From the NCBI GenBank assembly GCA_021808485.1, contig JAKBBN010000036.1, forward strand, positions 1 through 33,805: a DNA stretch of 33,805 bases. The letters run 5' to 3'. The position numbers and the translations under genes were made by a program. This DNA is from Planctomycetota bacterium (GTDB taxonomy: Bacteria; Planctomycetota; Phycisphaerae; WQYP01). This document shows positions 436 to 26,624 of the stretch, in pieces (positions within the stretch are counted from its first letter, which is position 1; every line of letters begins with the position of its first letter). The notes below the pieces were generated by a model. That model saw only the letters and a list, made by a program, of their open reading frames with translations. It did no database searches and was not told where the DNA came from.

Positions 436-1500
436 ATGGAAACCACCATACGCACCCAATGCATCGCGGTGGGGCAGACCGGCGCAACGATGACGAAAGA
501 TATCATGAAGGCGACGGCGCGATCGCGGCGTCGGCCCCGCGGATTTACACTCGTTGAGCTGCTGGTGGTGATATCCATCATCGCATTGCTGATATCGTTG
601 TTGCTTCCGGCGTTGGCGCAGGCGAGGATTATGGCGCTGCGGACGCAGTGTGCATCCAACCTGCATCAGATCGGTGTGGCGATGCAGGAATACGCGGTCG
701 AATTTGGGATGTACCCGCCGGGTGACACTGAAACGTATCCCATGGGTGCATTTGATAATGCCGGCTACACTCCCCCTAACGGGTCACCTTCAACGGGAAC
801 GCCGACATGGGGGCTGTCATTGCTGTTTTATGATTCCTTCAGCACGTTGCATGATGGACTTCAGATGACAAATATCCGGCCGGGGATTCTTCAGCCCACG
901 ATGACAGGCATATCGCTCATCTTTTCGCCGCAACCCGGGGTTGCCAGTATATCCGGATGGATACCCGCCCGGAGCTGGACGAGCAACGGAATGCTCCAGA
1001 ACTGGAATTTCATCTGTGGTTATTGTTATTGGGTTGATCGCGGCACAGGGGGGCTAAATCAAAGAGGTTCGATTTACAGCTTTGGCGCACCGCAGAAGGG
1101 CCAGGTGGCTGGCTACAGTCCGTCGTATGACTGGTACAGCTACGAAGGCTACCCAGGCGGTTATATAACGGATGAATATTTCAATACGGAAACCAATCAC
1201 ATGCCTGCTGAAAACCAGAATTCGAACCCGGGTTCAATCTTGTGTTCGGACGTGGCGGTAATTAACCAACCGGCAAGTCCATCCGGTCAACCTCCGTATC
1301 AGGGTGCTGAAACACTTTACGGACTTGGAAAACCCGTTTATACGGCGGTATCAAATCATGTCGACACGCCGGGCAGCAATTTGCTCCCCGACGGCATCCA
1401 TGATCTGTACAATGACGGATCCGTGATTTGGAATCCCATGTCCGAAGCAAAATTGCATTACCGATATGGTGCCGGCGGGTTGAATTATTATATCTGGTAA
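436..1500 (+). CDS. Prepilin-type N-terminal cleavage/methylation domain protein (pseudopilin)
   Basis: This is a 354-residue secreted pseudopilin-like protein of the type that is very abundant in Planctomycetota. The prepilin peptidase motif [17 protein letters not shown] starts at about residue 36, followed by the hydrophobic helix ending in LPALAQAR. The body is rich in Tyr, Trp and Gly, and near the end an H-x10-DG stretch and a YNDGSVIW motif resemble the tail of DUF1559-like planctomycete pseudopilins. The start at 436 has AGGAG seven bases upstream. It gives a long 36-residue leader, so starts at 490 or 505 are alternatives that would give a more usual leader. Its place directly ahead of exported glycan enzymes suggests a surface or substrate-binding role, which is inference. 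The family is secure; the function is not. Confidence 0.88.
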
Positions 1501-1910: not shown

Positions 1911-4172
1911 ATGGAAAAATCAGGCCCGCCGGTATTGGTTACGCGCCGCAAAGCGCTGGGAACGCTGGCCGCCTTGGCGGCGACCGTGGAATCCGTGTTT
2001 CCGGCCTCCGCCCGCCCGGACAACGCTTCACCGGAAAAACATCGCCAGAACGATCCGCACGGCCTTATTGAGTCCGGCGGCTTGTCCGCGGCGCACATTA
2101 CGGAAGTATATCCCGGAGTGTGGAAAGTCCATTTTGGCGGAGCCTCCGAAGTTGTCACTCCGTTGACATTTCGCTCCGCGACGGTTGATCCCGCTGCCAT
2201 TGGCGCACTGCCCGCAGTGCCATCCATTCCCTTGGATACCGGATCAATGTCATGGACCCTGTCGGCAAGGGGAGTGTCGGTGCAATTGCCGATGACCCCG
2301 GATGAGCACATTTACGGTTTGGGATTGGACACGGCAATTTTTGATATGACCGGGCGCCGGGCCATCTGTTGTGCATCGGATCAGCCCCAGGATAAGATGA
2401 ATTATTCGCACGCGTCGCTCCCATTTTATGTTTCCAACCGGGGCTATGGGGTGTATGTGGACACCGCCCGGTATGCATGGATTTATACTGGCGATGTGGC
2501 GCCTGCCGCATACTCGGGTCTTGGCGCAGGGGAGGGCGAAGGCCATGCGGCACTTCATACGCGGGAATTGTACCAGCCCCGCGTGCTTGCGCATAAAACA
2601 ATGCTGATCGACGTGCACCCTTCACAGGGTGTCGATATCTATATATTCGGGGGCCCGACGCTGCGCGACGCGGTGCAGCGTTACAATCTGTTTTCCGGGG
2701 GCGGCGCTGTTCCACCGCTCTGGGGACTGGGCATGCACTTCCGCAGTGCGTCGCAAATGCCCGGCAAGCAGATTTCGGCATTGGCCCGGCGCATCCGGCG
2801 TGACCGCCTGCCGTTTACGATGTGGGGCCTGGAGCCGGGCTGGCAAAGTCATGCGTACCCCTGCTCGTTTATGTGGAACAAGGAGCATTTTCCGGATCCG
2901 GATGCATTCATTAATCAGATGAAAAAAATGAATTTTCATTTGAACCTCTGGGAGCATGCCTTTACGAGTCCGTTGTCGCCAATGTACGGCAAAATAAAGT
3001 CGTGGTCCGGCAATTACCTTGTCTGGGGCGGCCTGGTGCCGGATTTCGGTTCACGCCCCCTGCGGAAAATCTGGATGGAGCATCATGACCGGATCATGTT
3101 CGATAAAGGCGTTGACGGTGTAAAGCTCGATGAATGCGATAACCAGCCTTACCGCGCCCACCCCTGGTCATTTCCTGAAGCCAGCGTGTTTCCATCGGGA
3201 CTGGATGGGGAACTGATGCACAGTCTGTTCGGGGAACTGTACCAGCAGACCATGATTGAGCCATTAACGCGGCGCAATCTTCGCACGTGGGGCCTGGTGC
3301 GTAATACGTTTTCGCTGGCCGCACCCCTGCCGTTCATGGTGTACAGTGACAGTTACGATCTTACTTGCTACCTGCGGGGTATTTGCAAACAGGGTTTTTG
3401 CGGGCTTATGTGGAACCCGGAAGTGCGCCAGGCGGCATCGGTGGAGGATCTGTACCGGCGCATTCAATTGGTCATTTTCTCGCCCATGGCGGTAGTGGAT
3501 TGCTGGTACATGAACCTCCCGCCGTGGCTGCAGGTGAACCGGGATTTAAGCAACCATGGCGAATTGATGGCCAATCACCAGGCCGTCACTGAGGCGGTGC
3601 GCAAACTCTTTGAATTACGGATGAGCCTGATTCCCTACCTCTACACGGCATTCAACGATTACCGCCTGACCGGAATGCCGCCGGTTCGGGCCATGGTGAT
3701 GGATTGGCCGGAGGACATCCACACCCACGGGATTGACGATCAGTTCATGTTCGGTCCTGCGGTGATGGTGGCTCCGATCCTGACGGGCCAGTCCAAGCGG
3801 CGCGTCTATCTTCCGCACGGCGAATGGTATGATTTTGCCACGCACGAGAAATTCAAAGGTGGAGGATGGATCACGATCGGCAAGCCGCAGGAAGAAGTCC
3901 CGATGTTTGTGAAATCCGGCGTACTGCTGCCGCTGGCCCGGCCGGTGGAATATATAACGCCGACAACCTGCTTTGATATCACTGTCCATGTATTTGGTGA
4001 TTCGCCTGAACCAATCACACTGTATGAAGATGACGGTGTGACGCTGGATTTCCGTCGCGGAAAGCAGAACCGCATGGCGGTAAGCTGGGCGAACGGCGGG
4101 GGTGAATTAAAGAAAACGGGCAATTATCATGGACCGTCTCGCTATCGAATCACGGATTACAGGCGAGTTTAG
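1911..4172 (+). CDS. Exported glycoside hydrolase family 31 (alpha-glucosidase/alpha-xylosidase type)
   Basis: This 753-residue protein begins with a twin-arginine-like signal (TRRKALGTLAALAA at about residues 12-25, ending near PASA), so it is probably exported folded. The layout fits GH31: an N-terminal beta domain with the family-like segment EHIYGLGLD, a (beta/alpha)8 barrel from about residue 260, and a C-terminal beta domain ending in a YEDDG motif. The segment VDGVKLDEC places the likely catalytic nucleophile at Asp407. Asp480 in VYSDSYD is the likely acid/base. GH31 enzymes retain configuration and cleave alpha-glucosides, alpha-xylosides, alpha-galactosides or sulfoquinovosides; the substrate cannot be told here. 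It is the first enzyme of the glycan cluster but is separated by 417 bases from the following operon. The family call is firm. Confidence 0.9.
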   Translation: MEKSGPPVLVTRRKALGTLAALAATVESVFPASARPDNASPEKHRQNDPHGLIESGGLSAAHITEVYPGVWKVHFGGASEVVTPLTFRSATVDPAAIGALPAVPSIPLDTGSMSWTLSARGVSVQLPMTPDEHIYGLGLDTAIFDMTGRRAICCASDQPQDKMNYSHASLPFYVSNRGYGVYVDTARYAWIYTGDVAPAAYSGLGAGEGEGHAALHTRELYQPRVLAHKTMLIDVHPSQGVDIYIFGGPTLRDAVQRYNLFSGGGAVPPLWGLGMHFRSASQMPGKQISALARRIRRDRLPFTMWGLEPGWQSHAYPCSFMWNKEHFPDPDAFINQMKKMNFHLNLWEHAFTSPLSPMYGKIKSWSGNYLVWGGLVPDFGSRPLRKIWMEHHDRIMFDKGVDGVKLDECDNQPYRAHPWSFPEASVFPSGLDGELMHSLFGELYQQTMIEPLTRRNLRTWGLVRNTFSLAAPLPFMVYSDSYDLTCYLRGICKQGFCGLMWNPEVRQAASVEDLYRRIQLVIFSPMAVVDCWYMNLPPWLQVNRDLSNHGELMANHQAVTEAVRKLFELRMSLIPYLYTAFNDYRLTGMPPVRAMVMDWPEDIHTHGIDDQFMFGPAVMVAPILTGQSKRRVYLPHGEWYDFATHEKFKGGGWITIGKPQEEVPMFVKSGVLLPLARPVEYITPTTCFDITVHVFGDSPEPITLYEDDGVTLDFRRGKQNRMAVSWANGGGELKKTGNYHGPSRYRITDYRRV

Positions 4173-4355
4173 CGTGTCATGAAAGCCGAAGCTGCGTTTA
4201 CCGCAACCCAGGTGCGTTTCATGCGGTCGCAGCGCCATTTACCTTTGCGACTCGCAAGCTTGGGTCTTTATTGAAAGGATGCTGTTGTTGTTACCGGCTG
4301 CGAACCGTGAAATAGGTTTCGCTTGTGTTGCGGGTTCAGAAATGTCATGACCGGC

Positions 4356-4372
4356 CGCATGATTATCATGCG
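4356..4372. promoter_or_regulatory. 17-bp perfect palindrome, candidate operator
   Basis: The sequence CGCATGAT-T-ATCATGCG is a perfect inverted repeat around a single central base. It lies in the intergenic gap about 217 bases before the lyase start. Palindromes of this size with an odd centre are typical binding sites of dimeric repressors. The cognate regulator is not in the window. Confidence 0.5.
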
Positions 4373-4481
4373 AAGTTGTGAGGATTCTGAGGGTTAACCT
4401 CGGCAACGAAATTAAAATGTGATCCGAAGGGTTTGGGCGGGCGGCGTTGTTGGATAAAGGCGCCTGCGCCGCAGTGTCTGG

Positions 4482-4494
4482 TTTCATGATGAAA
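4482..4494. promoter_or_regulatory. 13-bp perfect palindrome, candidate operator
   Basis: The sequence TTTCAT-G-ATGAAA is a perfect inverted repeat with a one-base centre, 95 bases before the lyase start. Its 11-bp core TTCATNATGAA recurs at 28451-28461. Confidence 0.45.
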
Positions 4495-4589
4495 TGTTTG
4501 TATTCGGGATTGATCAAAAGCATCGGCACCTGCCTTAATTGGATGGCTGCAATAAAAGATGATCGTTATTTGGATGACAAGGATTGCAA

Positions 4590-6953
4590 GTGAGTGTGAA
4601 CAACAATATCGACCGACGTAATCTGATGAAATCGGGTATTTTGCTTAGTTCGGTGATATGGCAAAACAAATCTCTGCCGGCGGACATGGTTGCCCGGCAA
4701 TCGGGCGGCGGCTCTGCGTCCCCCGATCCATTTTTCCAGCAGCATCCGCGGCTTTTTTACAATGTCGCGTCGCTGAAGGGTTTGCGCCGCTGGCTGGGTT
4801 CAAACGCGGCGGCCCGCCATTCGCTGTTCAAGCGGGGCGGGGAATTGCTGCATGCCGACTTTATTCCCGAAGCGGACGCCGAGAAAGGGCCCGGCCAACA
4901 GGCGAGATTCGGATCTTCAGGCGACCAGATGATGGAAATGGGCTTGAATCTGGGCGTCCTTTATCATCTCACCGGCGATAAGCGCTACGCGGACAAGCTT
5001 CGCCGTGCGATGTTTTACTATGCACAATACACGCATTGGACCGCGCCGAGTTTTTTTCATCGATCCCCGCCCTGGCATTCGGAATTAGATACGTCAACAT
5101 TCGCATTTGGCTATGCCGCCGGTTATGACGCGTTATGCGGGTTTCTTTCCGACTCGGACCGCAAGGAAATTGCCACCGTCATGGTTCGCAAGGCGGTTTT
5201 ACCCATTCTTGACGATTGGATATTGCCTGGTCGAAGGATTCAGTCGCTGGATTCCATGGGCCACAACTGGTGGGGAGTCTGCGTAAGCGGCGCCGGACTT
5301 TGTGCCCTATCGCTGCTGGGTTACGATTCGCGGGCTCAGGACTGGATTGGCGCGATAGACATCGGATTCAAACAATGGTTTGACTATAAGGGCAATGTGC
5401 TGCAAAACCGAGTCGCCACGTTCGAGCCTTCCGGGCCATCCTACGAAGGTGTCGGCTATACCGACTACGGTGTAAGTCAATATCTCCAATATCGATTGGC
5501 CTGGCAGAATACCTTTCCAGGTCGGAAACCGGCGGATATTGAGCGGCTCAAAGACCTCTCCCGCTTTTTTCTCCATACTCTTTATCCAACGTCAAAGAGG
5601 TCTTTTGCCGTTAACTTTAACGACAGCGGGTTGCTGGGCGATTCCACTCCGACCATATTGCTGTTGATTGCATGCGGATTGGGAACGCCGGAATCCAGCC
5701 GATATCTTGAATTGGTACATACCCATCTGGAGGGGACCATGCTTTCGCTGCTGCGTCAGTATCGCAAGCCGGTCGCGGCAACGGATGTGCCGACGTCATA
5801 TGCCTACCCGAAAATGGGCTGGGCGATGATGCGCACATCATGGGAAAATGACGCGGCATTTCTGGCGGTAAAGTCCGGTTATACATGGAATCATGCGCAT
5901 GCCGACGCCGGCACATTTATGCTTTTCAAGAATGGGTTGCCGCTGATTATTGATTCGGGCCTCTGTTCTTATTTCCGGCCGGAGTATACCCGGTATTATC
6001 GGCAGAGCAGGGCGCACAATGTCATTTTATTTAATGGCATGGGGCAACCCGAACTGGATTTATTCGATGGCTGCAAGTTTTCCGGTCACCTGCACAGCAT
6101 GATCGACGGGTTGGGCCTGAAATACATCTGCGCCGACGCCACCGGCCCGATGGCCCGGTTTTTTGTGCGGAATTATCGTCATTGGATATGGAGCGGGGAT
6201 GTTATCCTGATCGTAGACGATGTGCGTGCGCACGTCGCCGGAAAGCTGGACTGGCTTTTGCACTTCGAAGGGAACTACACGAAGGCGCCGGGAGGAGGGG
6301 TCCACCTGAAAAATGGAGCGGCGGAGGCGGTGGTCAAAATCCTGTATCCAGATACAAAGCTCAGTCAGGCAACCGGACTGGCCAACGAACAACCGGATAA
6401 GAAGGTCCCATATCTGGTCTTTTCCCATGATGCCGATGGGCAATTGTGCCAGTTCGTGACGGCTATCTGCTTAAACCCGCTGGCAATGCCGACATTTGAG
6501 ATGCAATCCACCGGAGATCACCTGTCCGTGCGCGTGCGGACGGCTGATACGGTGGAAGACATTTATCTGGATCTTCGTGCCATCCGCACGCCGGGTACAA
6601 TCCGTGAAAACGCCGAAGGTTACCTGACGGATGCATATTTGCTGCATCTCACACGTGACAATTCACCGAATCGGCCCATTAAGCGGTATTTTATGTGTGA
6701 TGGCAGCTATCTTCGGCACAAGGATAAAAGCGTCATCGAATCCCTTTCCAAACTGACTGCATGCTGGTCATCAGGCCGGACGCCGGAAATTTATTCCAAT
6801 GACGGGTCTGACTTTATTCAGATTGCCGCGAACGAGGGCTGCCGACAAGCGCGGTGGAATGGCCGACTTATCAACGGCACTTATGACAGCGCCGCAAAAC
6901 TTCTTGTTTTGGATAAACGCGAAGATGCGAATGCCGCAAAGGACATCCGTTAG
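4590..6953 (+). CDS. Exported heparinase II/III-family protein (polysaccharide lyase type)
   Basis: This is a 787-residue exported protein with an N-terminal DRRNLMKSG twin-arginine-like segment. The first half looks like an (alpha/alpha)n toroid, with helical pairs such as DKRYADKLRRAMFYYAQY. The second half has the heparinase II/III signature: NHAHADAGTF (His435, His437) followed by RAHNVILFNGMGQ (His476, Asn477). Known members cleave uronic-acid-containing glycans such as heparin, heparan, alginate oligomers and related polymers by beta-elimination. I chose GTG at 4590 because AAGGA sits about seven bases upstream; TTG at 4584 is in frame but too close to that site. It heads a tight operon: the next gene starts 21 bases after its stop. 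The substrate is unknown. Confidence 0.87.
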   Translation: MSVNNNIDRRNLMKSGILLSSVIWQNKSLPADMVARQSGGGSASPDPFFQQHPRLFYNVASLKGLRRWLGSNAAARHSLFKRGGELLHADFIPEADAEKGPGQQARFGSSGDQMMEMGLNLGVLYHLTGDKRYADKLRRAMFYYAQYTHWTAPSFFHRSPPWHSELDTSTFAFGYAAGYDALCGFLSDSDRKEIATVMVRKAVLPILDDWILPGRRIQSLDSMGHNWWGVCVSGAGLCALSLLGYDSRAQDWIGAIDIGFKQWFDYKGNVLQNRVATFEPSGPSYEGVGYTDYGVSQYLQYRLAWQNTFPGRKPADIERLKDLSRFFLHTLYPTSKRSFAVNFNDSGLLGDSTPTILLLIACGLGTPESSRYLELVHTHLEGTMLSLLRQYRKPVAATDVPTSYAYPKMGWAMMRTSWENDAAFLAVKSGYTWNHAHADAGTFMLFKNGLPLIIDSGLCSYFRPEYTRYYRQSRAHNVILFNGMGQPELDLFDGCKFSGHLHSMIDGLGLKYICADATGPMARFFVRNYRHWIWSGDVILIVDDVRAHVAGKLDWLLHFEGNYTKAPGGGVHLKNGAAEAVVKILYPDTKLSQATGLANEQPDKKVPYLVFSHDADGQLCQFVTAICLNPLAMPTFEMQSTGDHLSVRVRTADTVEDIYLDLRAIRTPGTIRENAEGYLTDAYLLHLTRDNSPNRPIKRYFMCDGSYLRHKDKSVIESLSKLTACWSSGRTPEIYSNDGSDFIQIAANEGCRQARWNGRLINGTYDSAAKLLVLDKREDANAAKDIR

Positions 6954-6974
6954 CTTTTCTGGAGATAATGACCT

Positions 6975-8360
6975 ATGACTCGATTATCAAGGCGCAGTTT
7001 GTTAACGGGCTTGGCGGCTGCGGGAGCCGTGTCCCTGGCTGACCGCCCCGCAGGCATGGTTGGCGCATTGCCCGCGGTTGCCGATAACCCGTCTGCAGGT
7101 GCGTTGTCGCCTGCGGAAAGGAAAACCGCCAAACGGAAACTGATGGAATATTTTTCTTCAGTAGCGCCGAAAATGCTGCGACCGGCGATGGGAATCTTGC
7201 GCCATCCCAGTATATCTCCAAGCCTTCCGGGGGATGCGTACAACACGCAGCTATGGGACTGGGATACGCTCTGGACGAGCCGCGCGTTATTCCATCTCGC
7301 ACGCATGGCCGCGGATCGAAGTCTGTTCAATCAGGTTGGATTGCATGCGCAAGGCAGTCTTCTGGATTTTCTGGATCATCAGTCCGATACCGGCCGTATT
7401 CCTATCATGATAGAGGTGCACAACCCCGATCGCTTCAATTGTCTGAGCTCCGCGGCTCCCAATCACAGGAATCAGGCCAAACCGATATTCGGACAGTTGG
7501 CGCTGCTGATTGCCGATGAATTGCGGTCCGTCGATTGGCTGCGGTCAAAATTTGACCACATCCTTCGTTTTTATGATTCATGGATTTCGGGCAACCGGGC
7601 CTCTTTGGGTTTGCTGGTGTGGGGTGATGATGTGGCGATTGGCGATGACAATGATCCCACGACATTCGGGCGTCCCTTCTTTTCGTCGGCCAACCTGCTG
7701 CTTAATTCTCTGTACTATGCCGATCTTCGCGCATCGGCCGAACTGGCGCATCGTCTCAATCGTGTGCAGGATGCCAAACGTCTGGCCGCCATGGCAAAGG
7801 AACAGGGAGCAAATATCCAGAAATACTGCTGGGATCCGCGCGATCAATTTTATTACACCGTGGACGTGCAGTGCGTGGATAAACGCAGAGAGTTGATTCC
7901 CTGGGACCAGCACGAAGGCATGGCCATGTCGTGGAAATGCCTGCCATTGCGCATTCAGATGTTCACGGGCTTTCTGCCCATGTGGGCCGGGCTGGCAACG
8001 CCCGGGCAGGCGGCCATGCTGGTGAAGCAGCATTACCTTGACACCAAGACATTTAATTCACCCTTCGGCGTCCGATCGCTTTCGCGGCAGGAAACCATGT
8101 ACTCCTTGCAGTTCAGTTCTAATCCCAGTGACTGGCTGGGCCCCGTATGGATCATGACCAACTATTTCGTCTGGAAAGGTTTGAAAACCTACGGCTACCA
8201 TGCCGAGGCAACGGTGTTGGCCGACAAAACCCTGCGATTGCTGGCCGACGATCTTGCCAAACATGGATGCCTGAATGAATACTACCACCCGGAAACCGGG
8301 GCGCCGCTGGGGCAGAAAGGCTTTCTTGACTGGAATATGCTGGTTCTGGAAATGGCATAG
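6975..8360 (+). CDS. Exported GH37/GH63-like (alpha/alpha)6 glycosidase
   Basis: This 461-residue protein has a clear twin-arginine signal (SRRSLLTGLAAAGAVSLA). The QLWDWDTLWTSRALFHLAR segment near residue 95, the acidic GDDNDPTTFGRP segment (Asp224, Asp225, Asp227) and the closing NEYYHPETGAP (Glu435) followed by FLDWNML match the trehalase / mannosyl-oligosaccharide glucosidase (GH37/GH63, 'MGH1-like') fold. In that fold an Asp and a Glu in equivalent places act as acid and base. These enzymes invert configuration on alpha-glucosides or mannosyl-glycerates. The exact family and substrate need a profile search. It sits 21 bases after the lyase and 7 bases before the next gene, so co-transcription is likely. 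Confidence 0.83.
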   Translation: MTRLSRRSLLTGLAAAGAVSLADRPAGMVGALPAVADNPSAGALSPAERKTAKRKLMEYFSSVAPKMLRPAMGILRHPSISPSLPGDAYNTQLWDWDTLWTSRALFHLARMAADRSLFNQVGLHAQGSLLDFLDHQSDTGRIPIMIEVHNPDRFNCLSSAAPNHRNQAKPIFGQLALLIADELRSVDWLRSKFDHILRFYDSWISGNRASLGLLVWGDDVAIGDDNDPTTFGRPFFSSANLLLNSLYYADLRASAELAHRLNRVQDAKRLAAMAKEQGANIQKYCWDPRDQFYYTVDVQCVDKRRELIPWDQHEGMAMSWKCLPLRIQMFTGFLPMWAGLATPGQAAMLVKQHYLDTKTFNSPFGVRSLSRQETMYSLQFSSNPSDWLGPVWIMTNYFVWKGLKTYGYHAEATVLADKTLRLLADDLAKHGCLNEYYHPETGAPLGQKGFLDWNMLVLEMA

Positions 8361-8367
8361 AACGAGT

Positions 8368-9312
8368 ATGAGAATACCGCCGAATTTGAATCGTGGTTTT
8401 CCGGCGACATTATTCGCGGCCGCAGTGCTGTCCGCAATATTGTGGCCCGTCTGCATTGCCTTCGCGCGGGTAAAACTTTTAAAGGTGGAACCGAGCCGAA
8501 CTGATCCGGCGATCACGAACGTTCACGGTCCGAATATCGCGATTTATGATCCTCAGGCGCCGGACCGTCACCGACTGCTGCTGTTTATCGTGGGGACTGG
8601 AGCCACGGCCTTGGGCAGTCGACGGATTGACACGGTGTTTGCGAAATGGGGTTATCATGCCGTCAGCATTGACTACAACGACAACGTCATTGCCGTTGCC
8701 TGTGCCCACAGTCGGAACCCGGAGGCTTTTGGCGAGTATCGCGACGCCATTGTGACCGGCGCTCCGGTCTGCAAACTGGTGCATGTGACGCCGGCGGATT
8801 CCATCATAAACCGCTTTCAAAAAATGTTGTTGTACCTTGTGAAGCATGACCCCCGTGGTGGATGGGGGCAGTTCATGAAAGGTGGCAAGCCGGTATGGCG
8901 AAACGTCATTGTCGCCGGCCATTCACAGGGTTCCGGCCATGCCGCTTACCTCGGCAAACTGTTTAGAGTGGATCGGGTGCTGATGTTCTCCGGGCCGCAG
9001 GATTTTATGGATCGTTATCGGCGGCCGGCACCGTGGCTGTCCGAAAAAAGCGCCACGCCGCCCGCCCGTTTTTTTTCCTTTCTGGCCCGCAAAGATCCGT
9101 TTAACGTCCGACATCAAATCGCCAACTGTGTGGCGTTGATGCATTTATCCAAACCGGCGACATTGATGGTTCAACCGGGCAAAACGATTTCTCCGGACCG
9201 CGGAATACGGATTTTGATAAACAACCTTCCTGTCAAAAACCCACACGGTTCCACACTTCTGGTACGATTTAAGAATGTCTGGAAATACATGGTTACAGCC
9301 CGGATTCGATGA
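8368..9312 (+). CDS. Secreted alpha/beta hydrolase with lipase box (possible carbohydrate esterase)
   Basis: This is a 314-residue protein with a Sec-type signal (hydrophobic stretch at about residues 11-33). The lipase box GHSQG puts the nucleophile at Ser186. A beta strand-loop with VGTGA near residue 76 could form the oxyanion hole. SGPQD near 208 and FLARKDPFN near 238 sit where the acid strand of the fold is expected. The start at 8368 follows the preceding stop by seven bases. A longer in-frame start at 8275 would overlap the upstream gene by 86 bases and gives no signal peptide, so I rejected it. It resembles the BPSS1187-type alpha/beta hydrolases from memory; that is not certain. Within this operon an acetyl- or feruloyl-type glycan esterase is a reasonable inference. 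Confidence 0.78.
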   Translation: MRIPPNLNRGFPATLFAAAVLSAILWPVCIAFARVKLLKVEPSRTDPAITNVHGPNIAIYDPQAPDRHRLLLFIVGTGATALGSRRIDTVFAKWGYHAVSIDYNDNVIAVACAHSRNPEAFGEYRDAIVTGAPVCKLVHVTPADSIINRFQKMLLYLVKHDPRGGWGQFMKGGKPVWRNVIVAGHSQGSGHAAYLGKLFRVDRVLMFSGPQDFMDRYRRPAPWLSEKSATPPARFFSFLARKDPFNVRHQIANCVALMHLSKPATLMVQPGKTISPDRGIRILINNLPVKNPHGSTLLVRFKNVWKYMVTARIR

Positions 9313-9368
9313 GCACAATTCGCAGCGTATCATAGTAGAGTTCTGTCGGAACATGGAGATGAATTAAC

Positions 9369-11189
9369 ATGATCAAATGCTGTCCCATCAAACGCACGGG
9401 GTTGGCTGCCGCAGCAATCGCATTGTGGGGCATTCTGCACTGGACGGGTCCTTCTTCGGCGGCGGTATTCAAGCCGCGACATCTGGTTCGCACGTTTGCG
9501 CCGCCCGTCAAACTCGTACGCACCGGATCAGGCGACTATTTTGCCGATTTCGGTCAGGATTGGTTTGGCCAGTTGCATCTTCGCGTGAACAGTCCCGCCG
9601 GCGGCCGGGTCATCACCGTCATGATGGGGGAAAAGCTCGCCTCCCGCGACAAAATAGACTCGCGCCCGGGAGGTTATATCACTTTTTATAAAACCGGTCT
9701 TCGTCTGCGGCGCGGCCCTCACACCTATTCTGTCCCACTGCCGTCGGCCGACGCCCGTCGCATGCCGCGATCCATTGGCGCGGTCATGCCGTTCCGCTAT
9801 GCGCAGATCATCGGCTGTCCATCGGTTCTCCGGCGCAGGGATGTGCGGCAGATGCGCGTGTATTATCCATTTAATTCCGGCGCCGCCAAGTTTACTTCAA
9901 CCAACCACAACCTCAATGCGGTTTGGAAATTATGTCATCACAGCATTCAGGCTGTTACATTCTGCGGATTGTTTGTTGATGGTAATCGTGAGCGGCGGCC
10001 TTATGAAGCCGACGCGCTGATAGCGGAGCTCGACTGGTTCAACAATACAACAGGCGAAACGCTGCCGGCTCGGACCGATCAATATCTGATTTACCATCCG
10101 ACGTGGCCCACGGAATGGATCATGCAGAGTGTGTTGGCGGCATGGTATGATTATCTTTACACCGGCGATAAAACCCTGATTCGCGACAACTACACTTCGC
10201 TCAAGGCGAAAACCTTGGTGGCGCTGGAGCGTCGGGATGGATTGATCAGCACAATTGATCCGCCGGTACCCGTTGCGGTTCTACACAGCATTCATCGCAC
10301 GCGGCCCATACATGCCGTTGTGGACTGGCCTCAGGACGAACGCGACGGCTTTGTCATGCGACCCGTCAACACGGTGGTCAATGCTTTTCACTATCGCAGC
10401 CTGGTGCTCATGTCGCGCATTGCGGCGGCGCTGGGACATACGCGCCGGGCACGCTATTTCGCATCCCGGGCGCAATTGGTGCGCTCGACCATGAACCGTC
10501 TTCTGCTCAATCCGGCAACCGGATTGTATGTCGATGGCGTCGGCACCGGACACAGCTCAATACAGGCCAATTTGTTCCCCTTGGCGTTTGGTATCCCGCC
10601 CGGTCGGGACCGATCGCATATCGCTGATTTCCTTGTCAGGCAGGGTATGAAATGCAGTGTGTACGGCGCCCAATATTTGCTTGTGGCTCTGTATCGTGCG
10701 CACCGGGCGCAGGCCGCGTTGAATTTGCTTGATTCATCGGGTCCCAACAGTTGGATGGAAATGCTGAACGAAGGCTCCACGTTAACCACCGAAGCCTGGT
10801 CTGAGCGTATCAAGCCCAATGAGGACTGGAATCATATATGGGGAGCTGCGCCGGGTAACATTATTCCCCGTTACCTGATGGGCATTCGCCCGTTGGCGCC
10901 CGGCTTTACCAAGGCGATTATCGCACCGCAAATCGGCGATTTGTCGTTTGCGGATATAACCGTGCCTACTGTCCACGGGGAAATTGCCGAAAAAATCCGA
11001 CAGAATCATGGCGCTGCGACATTATCTCTCACCATACCCGTGGGAATTCAGGCCTCCATCAGGCTGCCGCGGAACTGGCGGGCGTTTCACGGCATCAGGC
11101 TGGACGGCCGCGCGCTACCCGCGGGTGCTCAAGATAAGGCCTTGTCCAATGTGGGTCCGGGCAATCACCTTCTGGTATTGTCGAAATGA
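9369..11189 (+). CDS. Secreted GH78-like alpha-L-rhamnosidase
   Basis: This is a 606-residue protein with a Sec signal (TGLAAAAIALWGIL, ending near SSAA). A short beta domain is followed by an (alpha/alpha)6 six-hairpin glycosidase domain from about residue 190. The segment DGNRERRPYEAD corresponds to the D-x-P-x-R-E...D acidic motif of GH78, with Glu208 and Asp215 in place but the spacing one residue shorter. Further on, TTEAWS (Glu475), DWNHIWGAAPGNIIPR and IRPLAPGF are typical of this family. GH78 enzymes remove terminal alpha-L-rhamnose with inversion. The start has GGAGA ten bases upstream. It is the last gene of the operon (56-base gap from the hydrolase). It is shorter than many GH78 proteins because the extra N-terminal beta domains are missing. 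Confidence 0.86.
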   Translation: MIKCCPIKRTGLAAAAIALWGILHWTGPSSAAVFKPRHLVRTFAPPVKLVRTGSGDYFADFGQDWFGQLHLRVNSPAGGRVITVMMGEKLASRDKIDSRPGGYITFYKTGLRLRRGPHTYSVPLPSADARRMPRSIGAVMPFRYAQIIGCPSVLRRRDVRQMRVYYPFNSGAAKFTSTNHNLNAVWKLCHHSIQAVTFCGLFVDGNRERRPYEADALIAELDWFNNTTGETLPARTDQYLIYHPTWPTEWIMQSVLAAWYDYLYTGDKTLIRDNYTSLKAKTLVALERRDGLISTIDPPVPVAVLHSIHRTRPIHAVVDWPQDERDGFVMRPVNTVVNAFHYRSLVLMSRIAAALGHTRRARYFASRAQLVRSTMNRLLLNPATGLYVDGVGTGHSSIQANLFPLAFGIPPGRDRSHIADFLVRQGMKCSVYGAQYLLVALYRAHRAQAALNLLDSSGPNSWMEMLNEGSTLTTEAWSERIKPNEDWNHIWGAAPGNIIPRYLMGIRPLAPGFTKAIIAPQIGDLSFADITVPTVHGEIAEKIRQNHGAATLSLTIPVGIQASIRLPRNWRAFHGIRLDGRALPAGAQDKALSNVGPGNHLLVLSK

Positions 11190-24143: not shown

Positions 24144-24332
24144 GGCGGAACGGCCGGTTGAACGGGGCTTGCGGCCAATGGCCTTGACGCTTCGATCGGG
24201 CGGAGTGGCGGCGTCGCCGCGGAACGATTACCATAGTTGTTGTAACACGATGATTTTGGACTGGGGTCATTTCAGCCCGAAGTGATTGTCGTTGCCAACA
24301 AGCTGTCTTTCGCTGGTAAAGGGGAACGTGTC

Positions 24333-26624
24333 ATGAAATTTATCAAACCGGTCGGAATTTCGGCGGTCGTGGCGATCATGGCGGTTACTACAGTATTTTC
24401 CGGCGTCACCCACGCCCGGACAATCGCGGGCCGGGTGCCCCCGGATCCAATGGTTTATATCGGTTGGAACGGCCCGCCAAGCCGCTGGGCCGGTTATCCG
24501 CATTCGCGGTTTAAGGATTTTCTTGACCACAGCCGCCTTTCCGAACTGTTCACCCGGGATCTGCCGGAAATCCTCAGGATGGTCGAGCCTAAGCATCCGC
24601 ATACGGCGCGGATTCTGGCGGAGTCGCTGATCAATGTGAATTTGTTTTTTCAGCACCCGTTCGCCCTGTATATCAGCCGTTTTTCCCTGCCGAATGCCGC
24701 AGCGGCCCAACCCGCAACACCGTCGCACATTGAACTGATCATGCGTGCGGGCAAGTCCCGGGCGTTGGCCATGGCGTTGTTCAAAAAAATCGCCGATGCG
24801 TTCAATCATTTGGCTGGGGGGGCGCCCGCAGCTTATCGAATGCGTGTCGGGCGCTTCGGCAATTTGGTTTATTTGACCAACGGTCTGACGCCGAGCATGA
24901 AGGAATTGCTTCATCTGGACGTTGGCGCCGTGCCTCCGCGTTCATTTATGCAGTCGGTGGCATACCAGCAGGCGCTGGCCCAAACGCAAACCCATCCGGC
25001 TCTGATGATATATGTGGACCTGCAAACCATCGTCAGGGGACTTAATTTCGGATTGACGCTTGCACCGTCCACTCACGAGGGCGGCAAGGCCGTTGTCAAG
25101 TTTCTGGAAAAAAGCTTTCATGTTGGCAGGTTGACGTCCTTGGTTATGACGGCGGGTATCGTCGGCCGGCGATTCACCCGTAACGTTTTCATCGGGGGGG
25201 CGGGTGGACAACAATCGCCGCAGGGGCAAAAATCGGTTGAGCGGATGCTGCGGCTGGTACCGCGCACCTGTGACAATTTTGCGATTGATTCGCTGGACAT
25301 AAAAGCCTTGATGGATCTGGTGGCACACGCCGTTCACCTTACGGACGGCGGGGCACAGTTCGATCAGGGATTGGCGATGATTAAAGCCTCCACCGGGCTG
25401 GATGTTCGCAAAGATGTGATTAATACCTTCGGCGGCCATTGGCTGATTTATCAATCTCCATACATTCCACTGGCGGGAAACAATGGATTGGTGGTGGTCA
25501 ATACGCTTCGCCATCCGCGGCGACTGGCGCAAAGTTTTGTAACTCTTACCCCCATGCTTCTTGTGGCGGCCAACGCGGAGGCGCACCGCGTTAACCCCGC
25601 CGCGCCTCCTTTGCGGCTGTCGCATGTCCGGGTTGGGAAAAACATTGTTTATTATCTCACCGCATCTCCCTTGCTGGTACCAAGCTGGTGTATTACGCCA
25701 CACCATTTTTATTTTGCTCTTCTGCCCCGTGCCATCCAGATGGCGATGGAGCACAAACCGGGCGAAAACTCAATTGTAAAGTCCGTAAAATTCCAGTCTG
25801 TGATGCGGCGGCTCCATGCCGCCGGCGTCGCGGATTCCATCAGTTATTGTGATGAGCCGGCAATGGCCCCCGCCGCTTACACGGAAATTCTGCTTGTCGA
25901 AAAAATGCTGCCTCTGCTGACCGGTATCAGTCTGCATCCCCCGCTGTCAGCGCTGCTGCCGCGGCTAAGCCGGGTGCGTAAGCTGCTGACGCCGTCCGGC
26001 ACCGTCAGCTGGTCGGACGGTCAGGGATACCATTTCCGATATATGTCGGCATTTCCCGGCAGCAGTTTGTTTGCTCCCCAATCCGTTTCTTCGATGAATC
26101 CGGTGATTGTCGGTCCCATGACCGCGGCGATGGCAACGGCGATCGTGCGTCCGACCATGGCGGCGGCAAAGAAGGATTCCAATAAACTCCAAGCGGAGCT
26201 AAATGAACATAAGATAATCAATTGGTGCGTGGACTATGCCGGCGATCACCAAGGCCGGTTGCCGTCCAGCGCCGGCGCCATTGTCAGCATGCACAAGAAA
26301 CCGGCAATCTGGATCGCACCCGGTTCCGGCACCATGCCGCTGACAGTTGATCAAATCAACAACACTTCGGCGGCCAAGCTGAATACCCTGCTGGCGCAGC
26401 ACAGCGACTTTGTATATGCAGGCGATGGTGTGGCTCTCAACAGCATTCCGGATCCGGTGCATTTTATCCTGGTTTATGAGCCGCACCCGCCGGCGGGTCT
26501 GATATGCGCGGTCGGTTTTGCGGATGGGCACGTGAGCACCATGACGGAACCCGCGCTCCGCAGCCGGATACGGCAAAACAATGCCGTTCGCCGGAAAATG
26601 CACCTTCCGGTGCTTCAACCCTGA
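24333..26624 (+). CDS. Large exported protein with pseudopilin-type C-terminal domain
   Basis: This is a 763-residue protein with a Sec signal (hydrophobic about 6-24, cut near THA). The long middle part (about 35-600) has the look of planctomycete DUF3352-like exported proteins: repeated helices, LIMRAGKSRALAMALFKKIA, and a domain duplicated in outline. From about residue 616 the sequence changes to a pseudopilin (DUF1559-like) globular tail: HKIINWCVDYAGDHQGRLP, then DFVYAGDG, ILVYEPH and FADGHV at about 729-734. The N-terminal pilin helix is missing. The start at 24333 follows a weak AAGGGGA. It converges with the CBS gene, with only 35 bases between the stops. The function is unknown. Confidence 0.8.
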   Translation: MKFIKPVGISAVVAIMAVTTVFSGVTHARTIAGRVPPDPMVYIGWNGPPSRWAGYPHSRFKDFLDHSRLSELFTRDLPEILRMVEPKHPHTARILAESLINVNLFFQHPFALYISRFSLPNAAAAQPATPSHIELIMRAGKSRALAMALFKKIADAFNHLAGGAPAAYRMRVGRFGNLVYLTNGLTPSMKELLHLDVGAVPPRSFMQSVAYQQALAQTQTHPALMIYVDLQTIVRGLNFGLTLAPSTHEGGKAVVKFLEKSFHVGRLTSLVMTAGIVGRRFTRNVFIGGAGGQQSPQGQKSVERMLRLVPRTCDNFAIDSLDIKALMDLVAHAVHLTDGGAQFDQGLAMIKASTGLDVRKDVINTFGGHWLIYQSPYIPLAGNNGLVVVNTLRHPRRLAQSFVTLTPMLLVAANAEAHRVNPAAPPLRLSHVRVGKNIVYYLTASPLLVPSWCITPHHFYFALLPRAIQMAMEHKPGENSIVKSVKFQSVMRRLHAAGVADSISYCDEPAMAPAAYTEILLVEKMLPLLTGISLHPPLSALLPRLSRVRKLLTPSGTVSWSDGQGYHFRYMSAFPGSSLFAPQSVSSMNPVIVGPMTAAMATAIVRPTMAAAKKDSNKLQAELNEHKIINWCVDYAGDHQGRLPSSAGAIVSMHKKPAIWIAPGSGTMPLTVDQINNTSAAKLNTLLAQHSDFVYAGDGVALNSIPDPVHFILVYEPHPPAGLICAVGFADGHVSTMTEPALRSRIRQNNAVRRKMHLPVLQP

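Follow-up and report, generated by a model that had tools for sequence, protein, structure and literature searches.

Five consecutive genes for exported glycan-active enzymes

The window analysed here is the whole of a 33,805-nucleotide stretch from a Planctomycetota bacterium of the Phycisphaerae lineage (GenBank assembly GCA_021808485.1, contig JAKBBN010000036.1). An earlier note on it had described a cluster of five exported glycan-processing enzymes at positions 1911–11189, and five consecutive genes on the + strand are indeed found there (Table 1), with Pfam and NCBIfam matches far beyond chance. The gaps in this run of glycoside hydrolase family 31 (GH31), lyase, GH63-like, BPSS1187-family and GH78 genes are 411, 21, 7 and 56 bases, the last three exactly as claimed. 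A twin-arginine translocation (Tat)-like or Sec signal had also been assigned to each enzyme and is visible by eye: the first three N-termini carry the twin-arginine-like motifs TRRKALG, DRRNLMK and SRRSLLT, and the last two look Sec-like. A carbohydrate-active enzyme (CAZyme) gene cluster (CGC) is defined as a CAZyme beside another CAZyme, a transporter or a regulator, with at most two genes between them (PMC11131199). Here, four genes of CAZyme families and one hydrolase gene are consecutive. We consider it rather probable that this CGC depolymerises an acidic heteropolysaccharide outside the cytoplasm.

Table 1. Features of the cluster and of the gene upstream (window positions)
Feature	Position	Strand	Basis
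GH31, PsGal31A-type probable alpha-galactosidase	1911..4172	+	Tat-like signal; nucleophile D407; PDB 4xpo match
Heparinase II/III-type polysaccharide lyase, unclassified clade	4584..6953	+	Pfam, AlphaFold2, Foldseek, residue invariance
GH63/MGH1-like (alpha/alpha)6 glycoside hydrolase	6975..8360	+	Tat-like signal; PF22422 and YgjK 3w7s match
BPSS1187-family alpha/beta-hydrolase-like protein, probable esterase	8368..9312	+	NF047580; triad S186-D243-H293
GH78-like alpha-L-rhamnosidase	9369..11189	+	Sec-like signal; PF17389, PF17390; 2okx and 6i60 matches
Prepilin-like/DUF1559 exported protein	490..1500	+	N_methyl 4.5e-08; SBP_bac_10/DUF1559 1.2e-07

The start of the lyase gene is ambiguous (TTG at 4584, GTG at 4590 or GTG at 4596, with AAGGA upstream). 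The mechanical open reading frame (ORF) of the BPSS1187-family gene opens at 8275, within the preceding gene, and the gene was taken from 8368. A scan for promoters and terminators gave the same counts as in shuffled sequence. Horizontal transfer was considered on grounds of composition and rejected, the cluster having the same G+C content at third codon positions (0.60–0.66) as its neighbours.

The GH31 protein resembles an alpha-galactosidase

The GH31 assignment (barrel, 1.4e-27; C-domain, 2.3e-25) stood as in the earlier note, as did the calls of heparinase II/III-type, GH63-like and GH78-like proteins; the generic alpha-glycosidase activity proposed for the GH31 protein gave way to an alpha-galactosidase-like one. 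Its closest solved structure, 4xpo, was matched over the full length with 392 bits (E = 5e-116), against 143 bits for the next distinct protein. 4xpo is PsGal31A, a GH31 alpha-galactosidase with active-site positions W486, Y274, E366, R418 and Y432 (PMC9491548). These five specificity residues, which comprise the Trp of the beta8-alpha8 loop and its galactose-reading partners, align with W532, Y316, E408, R464 and Y478 of the window protein under an inferred one-residue numbering offset that fits all five positions. The protein is best called a probable alpha-galactosidase. Alpha-glucosidase and alpha-xylosidase were rejected: the corresponding NCBIfam matches lie far under cut-off and, among solved proteins, an alpha-galactosidase comes closest.

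Conserved clusters at three loci (L144, L145 and L146) hold a second GH31 of this type, together with an 814-aa protein lacking a Pfam match, a regulator-like protein and a D-2-hydroxyacid dehydrogenase-like protein; two of these clusters also carry a sodium:solute symporter. Homologues of this dehydrogenase flank the lyase in the Clostridia records L084 and L102.

The lyase belongs to an unclassified clade spread over several phyla

The second protein matched Hepar_II_III_C in Pfam (8.4e-20), and its best sequence match in PDB was a polysaccharide lyase (PL) of family PL35, at 43.4 bits. An AlphaFold2 model with 46 homologues as input reached a predicted local distance difference test (pLDDT) score of 86.6 and a predicted TM-score of 0.85. 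With this model, Foldseek retrieved the alginate lyase Dp0100 (PL39), Atu3025 (PL15), exoHep and PL35 glycosaminoglycan (GAG) lyases (GAGases), and further human dermatan sulfate epimerase, PL17 and PL33, all at 18% identity or less (14–18% for PL33, PL35, PL39 and PL15). Candidate catalytic residues are N228, H227, Y292, H437 and Y463. N228, Y292, H437, Y463, D441 and H478 are invariant in the 46 homologues, and the metal site (H439, D441, D457, H478) is kept in 44–46 of them, H439 and D457 being nearly invariant. In PL33 (PMC11848413) and PL35 (PMC12088678) the catalytic and metal residues have been proven, with Asn, Tyr and His tested by mutation; N228, Y292 and H437 correspond to these.

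Judged by residue conservation, the lyase is catalytically intact. It shares with PL33, PL35, PL39 and PL15 the fold of an (alpha/alpha) toroid plus antiparallel beta-sheet, the Asn/Tyr/His set and the metal-site residues, as expected for the (alpha/alpha)+beta uronate lyase superfamily, but its similarity to them is below family level and it can be assigned to none. Since identity is at most 18% to any solved lyase, no substrate can be transferred from known enzymes. In GAGase III, a His before the catalytic Asn is needed for alginate activity (PMC12088678). A histidine likewise precedes N228, which by analogy hints at a uronate other than plain D-glucuronic acid (GlcA) as target.

By record titles, the clade extends over Planctomycetota, Verrucomicrobiota, Acidobacteriota, Poribacteria, Omnitrophota, Victivallales and Bacillota. 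We know of no assayed member, and the clade may be a new PL family. As a tentative extension, the lyase would found such a family across Planctomycetota, Verrucomicrobiota, Acidobacteriota and Bacillota, cut a uronate linkage, and partner an exported glycosidase-like protein (cluster 8, described below) on a polymer for which no dedicated locus is known. In Paenibacillus, the lyase gene is followed by one for a protein of about 2250–2330 aa, near GH38 genes (L057, 12477-19223, with a matching gene in L059); this large protein clusters with the lyase by similarity.

GH63-like, BPSS1187-family and GH78 proteins

The GH63-like protein matched MGH1-like_GH (PF22422, 4.1e-36) and Glyco_hydro_63 (4.2e-13). 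In the alignment with YgjK (3w7s, E = 1.4e-15), E435 falls at the position of E727, which we take to be the general base; the general acid was not mappable. The BPSS1187_fam model (NF047580) gave 243.9 bits for a cut-off of 125. The Ser-Asp-His set of this fourth protein, in the order typical of alpha/beta-hydrolases, is kept in three orthologues, and a PDB search found no relative of the protein. It is probably an esterase, possibly one acting on acylated sugars. To our knowledge no activity has been assayed in this family, and the literature found on BPSS1187 deals with the gene chiefly as a target for diagnostic PCR. The fifth protein combines the six-hairpin domain of GH78 (Bac_rhamnosid6H, PF17389, 5.3e-39; PF17390, 2.9e-11) with a putative general-base Glu, E475, aligned with E841 of RhaB (2okx), presumably the general base of that enzyme; 6i60 was a further match.

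Relatives keep the enzyme content but not the gene order

Among 101 genomes, full-length close homologues of the lyase were found only in that of the window (G000) and in two family relatives, G002 and G012. On contig C38 of G002, one strand carries DUF1559, SASA esterase, GH31 and GH78 genes, and the facing strand cluster 8, lyase, GH63, RhaT and an enoyl-CoA-hydratase-like gene. Contig C66 of G012 has cluster 8, lyase, GH63, RhaT and the same hydratase-like gene, then on the other strand a second MGH1-like GH, BPSS1187, GH31 and DUF1559. In an Acidobacteriaceae metagenome-assembled genome the order is lyase, GH31, GH63, cluster 8. The same gene order, which the earlier note had proposed to look for in other Planctomycetota, was thus rearranged in every relative seen, and a conserved order was rejected. 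The retention of the cluster was borne out in its content: lyase, GH63 (78–80% identical, adjoining the lyase) and GH31, plus GH78 or BPSS1187, are kept in both family relatives within a larger rearranged locus with a RhaT-type symporter. Sugar dehydrogenases, an epimerase fusion and AraC regulators also lie in the relatives' locus.

Conservation bears on whether these are unrelated glycoside hydrolases that happen to be neighbours in a CAZyme-rich genome, a reading already disfavoured and in our estimate quite unlikely. Some Planctomycetota classes do co-localise more than half of their GHs (PMC11131199), and the gene order is not conserved; but lyase and GH63 are neighbours in three genomes belonging to two genera, and GH31 stands beside the lyase in records from four phyla. 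The distance between lyase and GH31 is 224, 228 and 196 bases in records labelled Verrucomicrobia, Acidobacteriaceae and Clostridia, respectively, and 5.1 kb in another Bacillota record. These neighbourhoods come from a survey of 80 loci totalling 1.3 Mb. Within the family, each genome has between zero and two close relatives of the window GH31, so that, as a rough estimate, about one chance match or fewer would be expected in the 80 loci.

Companion genes elsewhere in the genome

The cluster 8 protein (557 residues) looks exported and had no match in Pfam, NCBIfam or PDB. It was found in exactly three of 31 genomes, namely those with the close lyase. The family (L141, at 8418-10148 of contig C44 in the window's genome; L016, L028, L034) is also present in one Acidobacteriaceae record. 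Its AlphaFold2 model (pLDDT 43) was not used. On C44, cluster 8 is accompanied by GH27, GH3, a DUF6259 protein and an AraC regulator; for GH27 and GH3, identity to their counterparts at the G002 and G012 loci is 70–78%. No exact overlap was found between the contig ends of C26 and C44.

Elsewhere in the window's genome, a RhaT homologue (60% identity) lies on C22, a RhaI-type rhamnose isomerase gene (500.9 bits) on C12, and three GH88/105 genes on other contigs. With RhaT in the relatives' locus, the RhaT and RhaI-type genes agree with the earlier suggestion of rhamnose as a likely constituent. The same note had stressed that the cluster lacks SusC/D and a transporter. SusD_RagB had no match genome-wide, a control genome being positive and SusC itself not searched; by this SusD search, the SusC/SusD pair of a Bacteroidota-type polysaccharide utilisation locus is missing. 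Because no SusD match occurs anywhere in the genome, this lack is not a feature of the cluster. The missing transporter holds locally, but as a property of the system it was rejected, given RhaT in the relatives' locus.

Several observations weigh against a CGC for an acidic heteropolysaccharide. GH31, GH63 and GH78 are found in different surroundings in relatives that lack the lyase, so that the cluster is a loose assembly, and the relatives' locus does not always include GH78 and BPSS1187. The RhaI match lies below the curated cut-off of 531 bits, E. coli-type RhaA was absent in a search of the window's genome, and the window cluster holds no GH88/105 gene.

Nature of the substrate

The enzyme set is best read as directed at an acidic heteropolysaccharide with rhamnose and alpha-galactose. 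The BPSS1187-family hydrolase would first take off ester groups, and the lyase would then break the chain through beta-elimination at 4-linked uronic acid. The GH78 and GH31 enzymes could release L-rhamnose and alpha-galactose, respectively, and the GH63-like enzyme trim another alpha-linked sugar. Released sugars would enter via symporters, rhamnose through the RhaT homologue and on to the RhaI-type isomerase, whose genes both lie on other contigs. The window block may represent one half of the system, with GH27, GH3, the AraC regulator and cluster 8 on C44 as companions; in relatives, the block and C44-type companions would form one larger locus.

Nothing in the data speaks specifically for pectin rhamnogalacturonan I (RG-I), ulvan or gellan. 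A rhamnogalacturonan or ulvan-like substrate, as proposed earlier, was not established, and no sulfatase in the cluster supports ulvan or GAG. A possible but doubtful substrate is a bacterial or algal acidic exopolysaccharide with rhamnose, galactose, GlcA and perhaps mannose (sphingan, acetan-like or similar). PL33, of the same fold as the lyase, has gellan-active members (PMC11848413), alpha-mannosidases adjoin distant lyase homologues in Acidobacteriota (GH38 and GH92) and in Paenibacillus (GH38), and GH92 is near the GH78 orthologue of G012. Against this, the lyase is only 15–18% identical to PL33 in structure alignments, far under family level, and the window cluster and the scanned C44 genes showed no mannosidase.

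Plant RG-I or its side chains seem an unlikely target. GH78, RhaT and a uronate lyase are all compatible with it, and on C22 some 5 kb separate the RhaT gene from one for a rhamnogalacturonase/epimerase-type protein; but the lyase is of the (alpha/alpha)+beta type, closest by Foldseek to alginate and GAG lyases. The known RG-I lyases, of PL4, PL9 and PL11, have other folds and did not appear among the matches, and the window cluster contains no GH28 or GH105 gene. For ulvan or another sulfated algal glycan, which we regard as highly improbable, the pairing of lyase and GH78 would be typical, a PL40 ulvan lyase was among the Foldseek matches (rank 40), and sulfatases flank distant lyase homologues. 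PL40 is only 12% identical to the lyase, however, and neither the window cluster nor the scanned genes of C44 and of the relatives' locus included a sulfatase.

It is very unlikely that the genes serve to remodel polysaccharide of the cell's own, at its surface or exported, instead of digesting a food polymer. All five products look exported, no transporter is adjacent, and glycosyltransferase-like genes (N-termini judged by eye) flank the C44 companion locus. Yet RhaT, the sugar dehydrogenases, the epimerase fusion and the AraC regulators of the relatives' locus point to catabolism.

Neighbouring features

The DUF1559 gene probably belongs to the locus. Its ORF opens at 292, and the prepilin motif suggests a start near 490. 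Orthologues 62–65% identical lie near GH31 on C38 of G002 and C66 of G012, at about 0.3 kb in one and about 2.5 kb in the other. DUF1559 proteins are usually ignored in CAZyme loci; here they are near GH31 in three genomes of two genera. A strong hairpin lies at 1520–1553, between the DUF1559 gene and GH31. Further along the window, 24282-26624 is a 780-aa ORF without a Pfam match.

Relation to known systems

In the gellan route of Bacillus sp. GL1, a lyase acts first, and an unsaturated uronyl hydrolase follows together with exo-glycosidases, one of them a GH78 rhamnosidase. The window cluster resembles it in combining a lyase with a GH78 rhamnosidase; it differs in the lyase family, in adding predicted alpha-galactosidases and an esterase, and in having no GH88 in the cluster. 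CAZyme clusters are frequent in Phycisphaerae and other Planctomycetota, and none had been functionally characterised as far as the authors of a 2024 survey knew (PMC11131199). Like those, the present cluster has several exported CAZymes side by side; unlike them, its content was not found described in the literature searched.

Our best reading is an ordinary CGC of modest newness, the lyase clade across phyla being its most interesting part. The cluster offers five soluble enzymes whose predicted specificities cover alpha-galactose, rhamnose and uronate, a multi-phylum lyase clade of which no close relative has a solved structure, and an orphan protein family travelling with it, all accessible to direct expression and assay.

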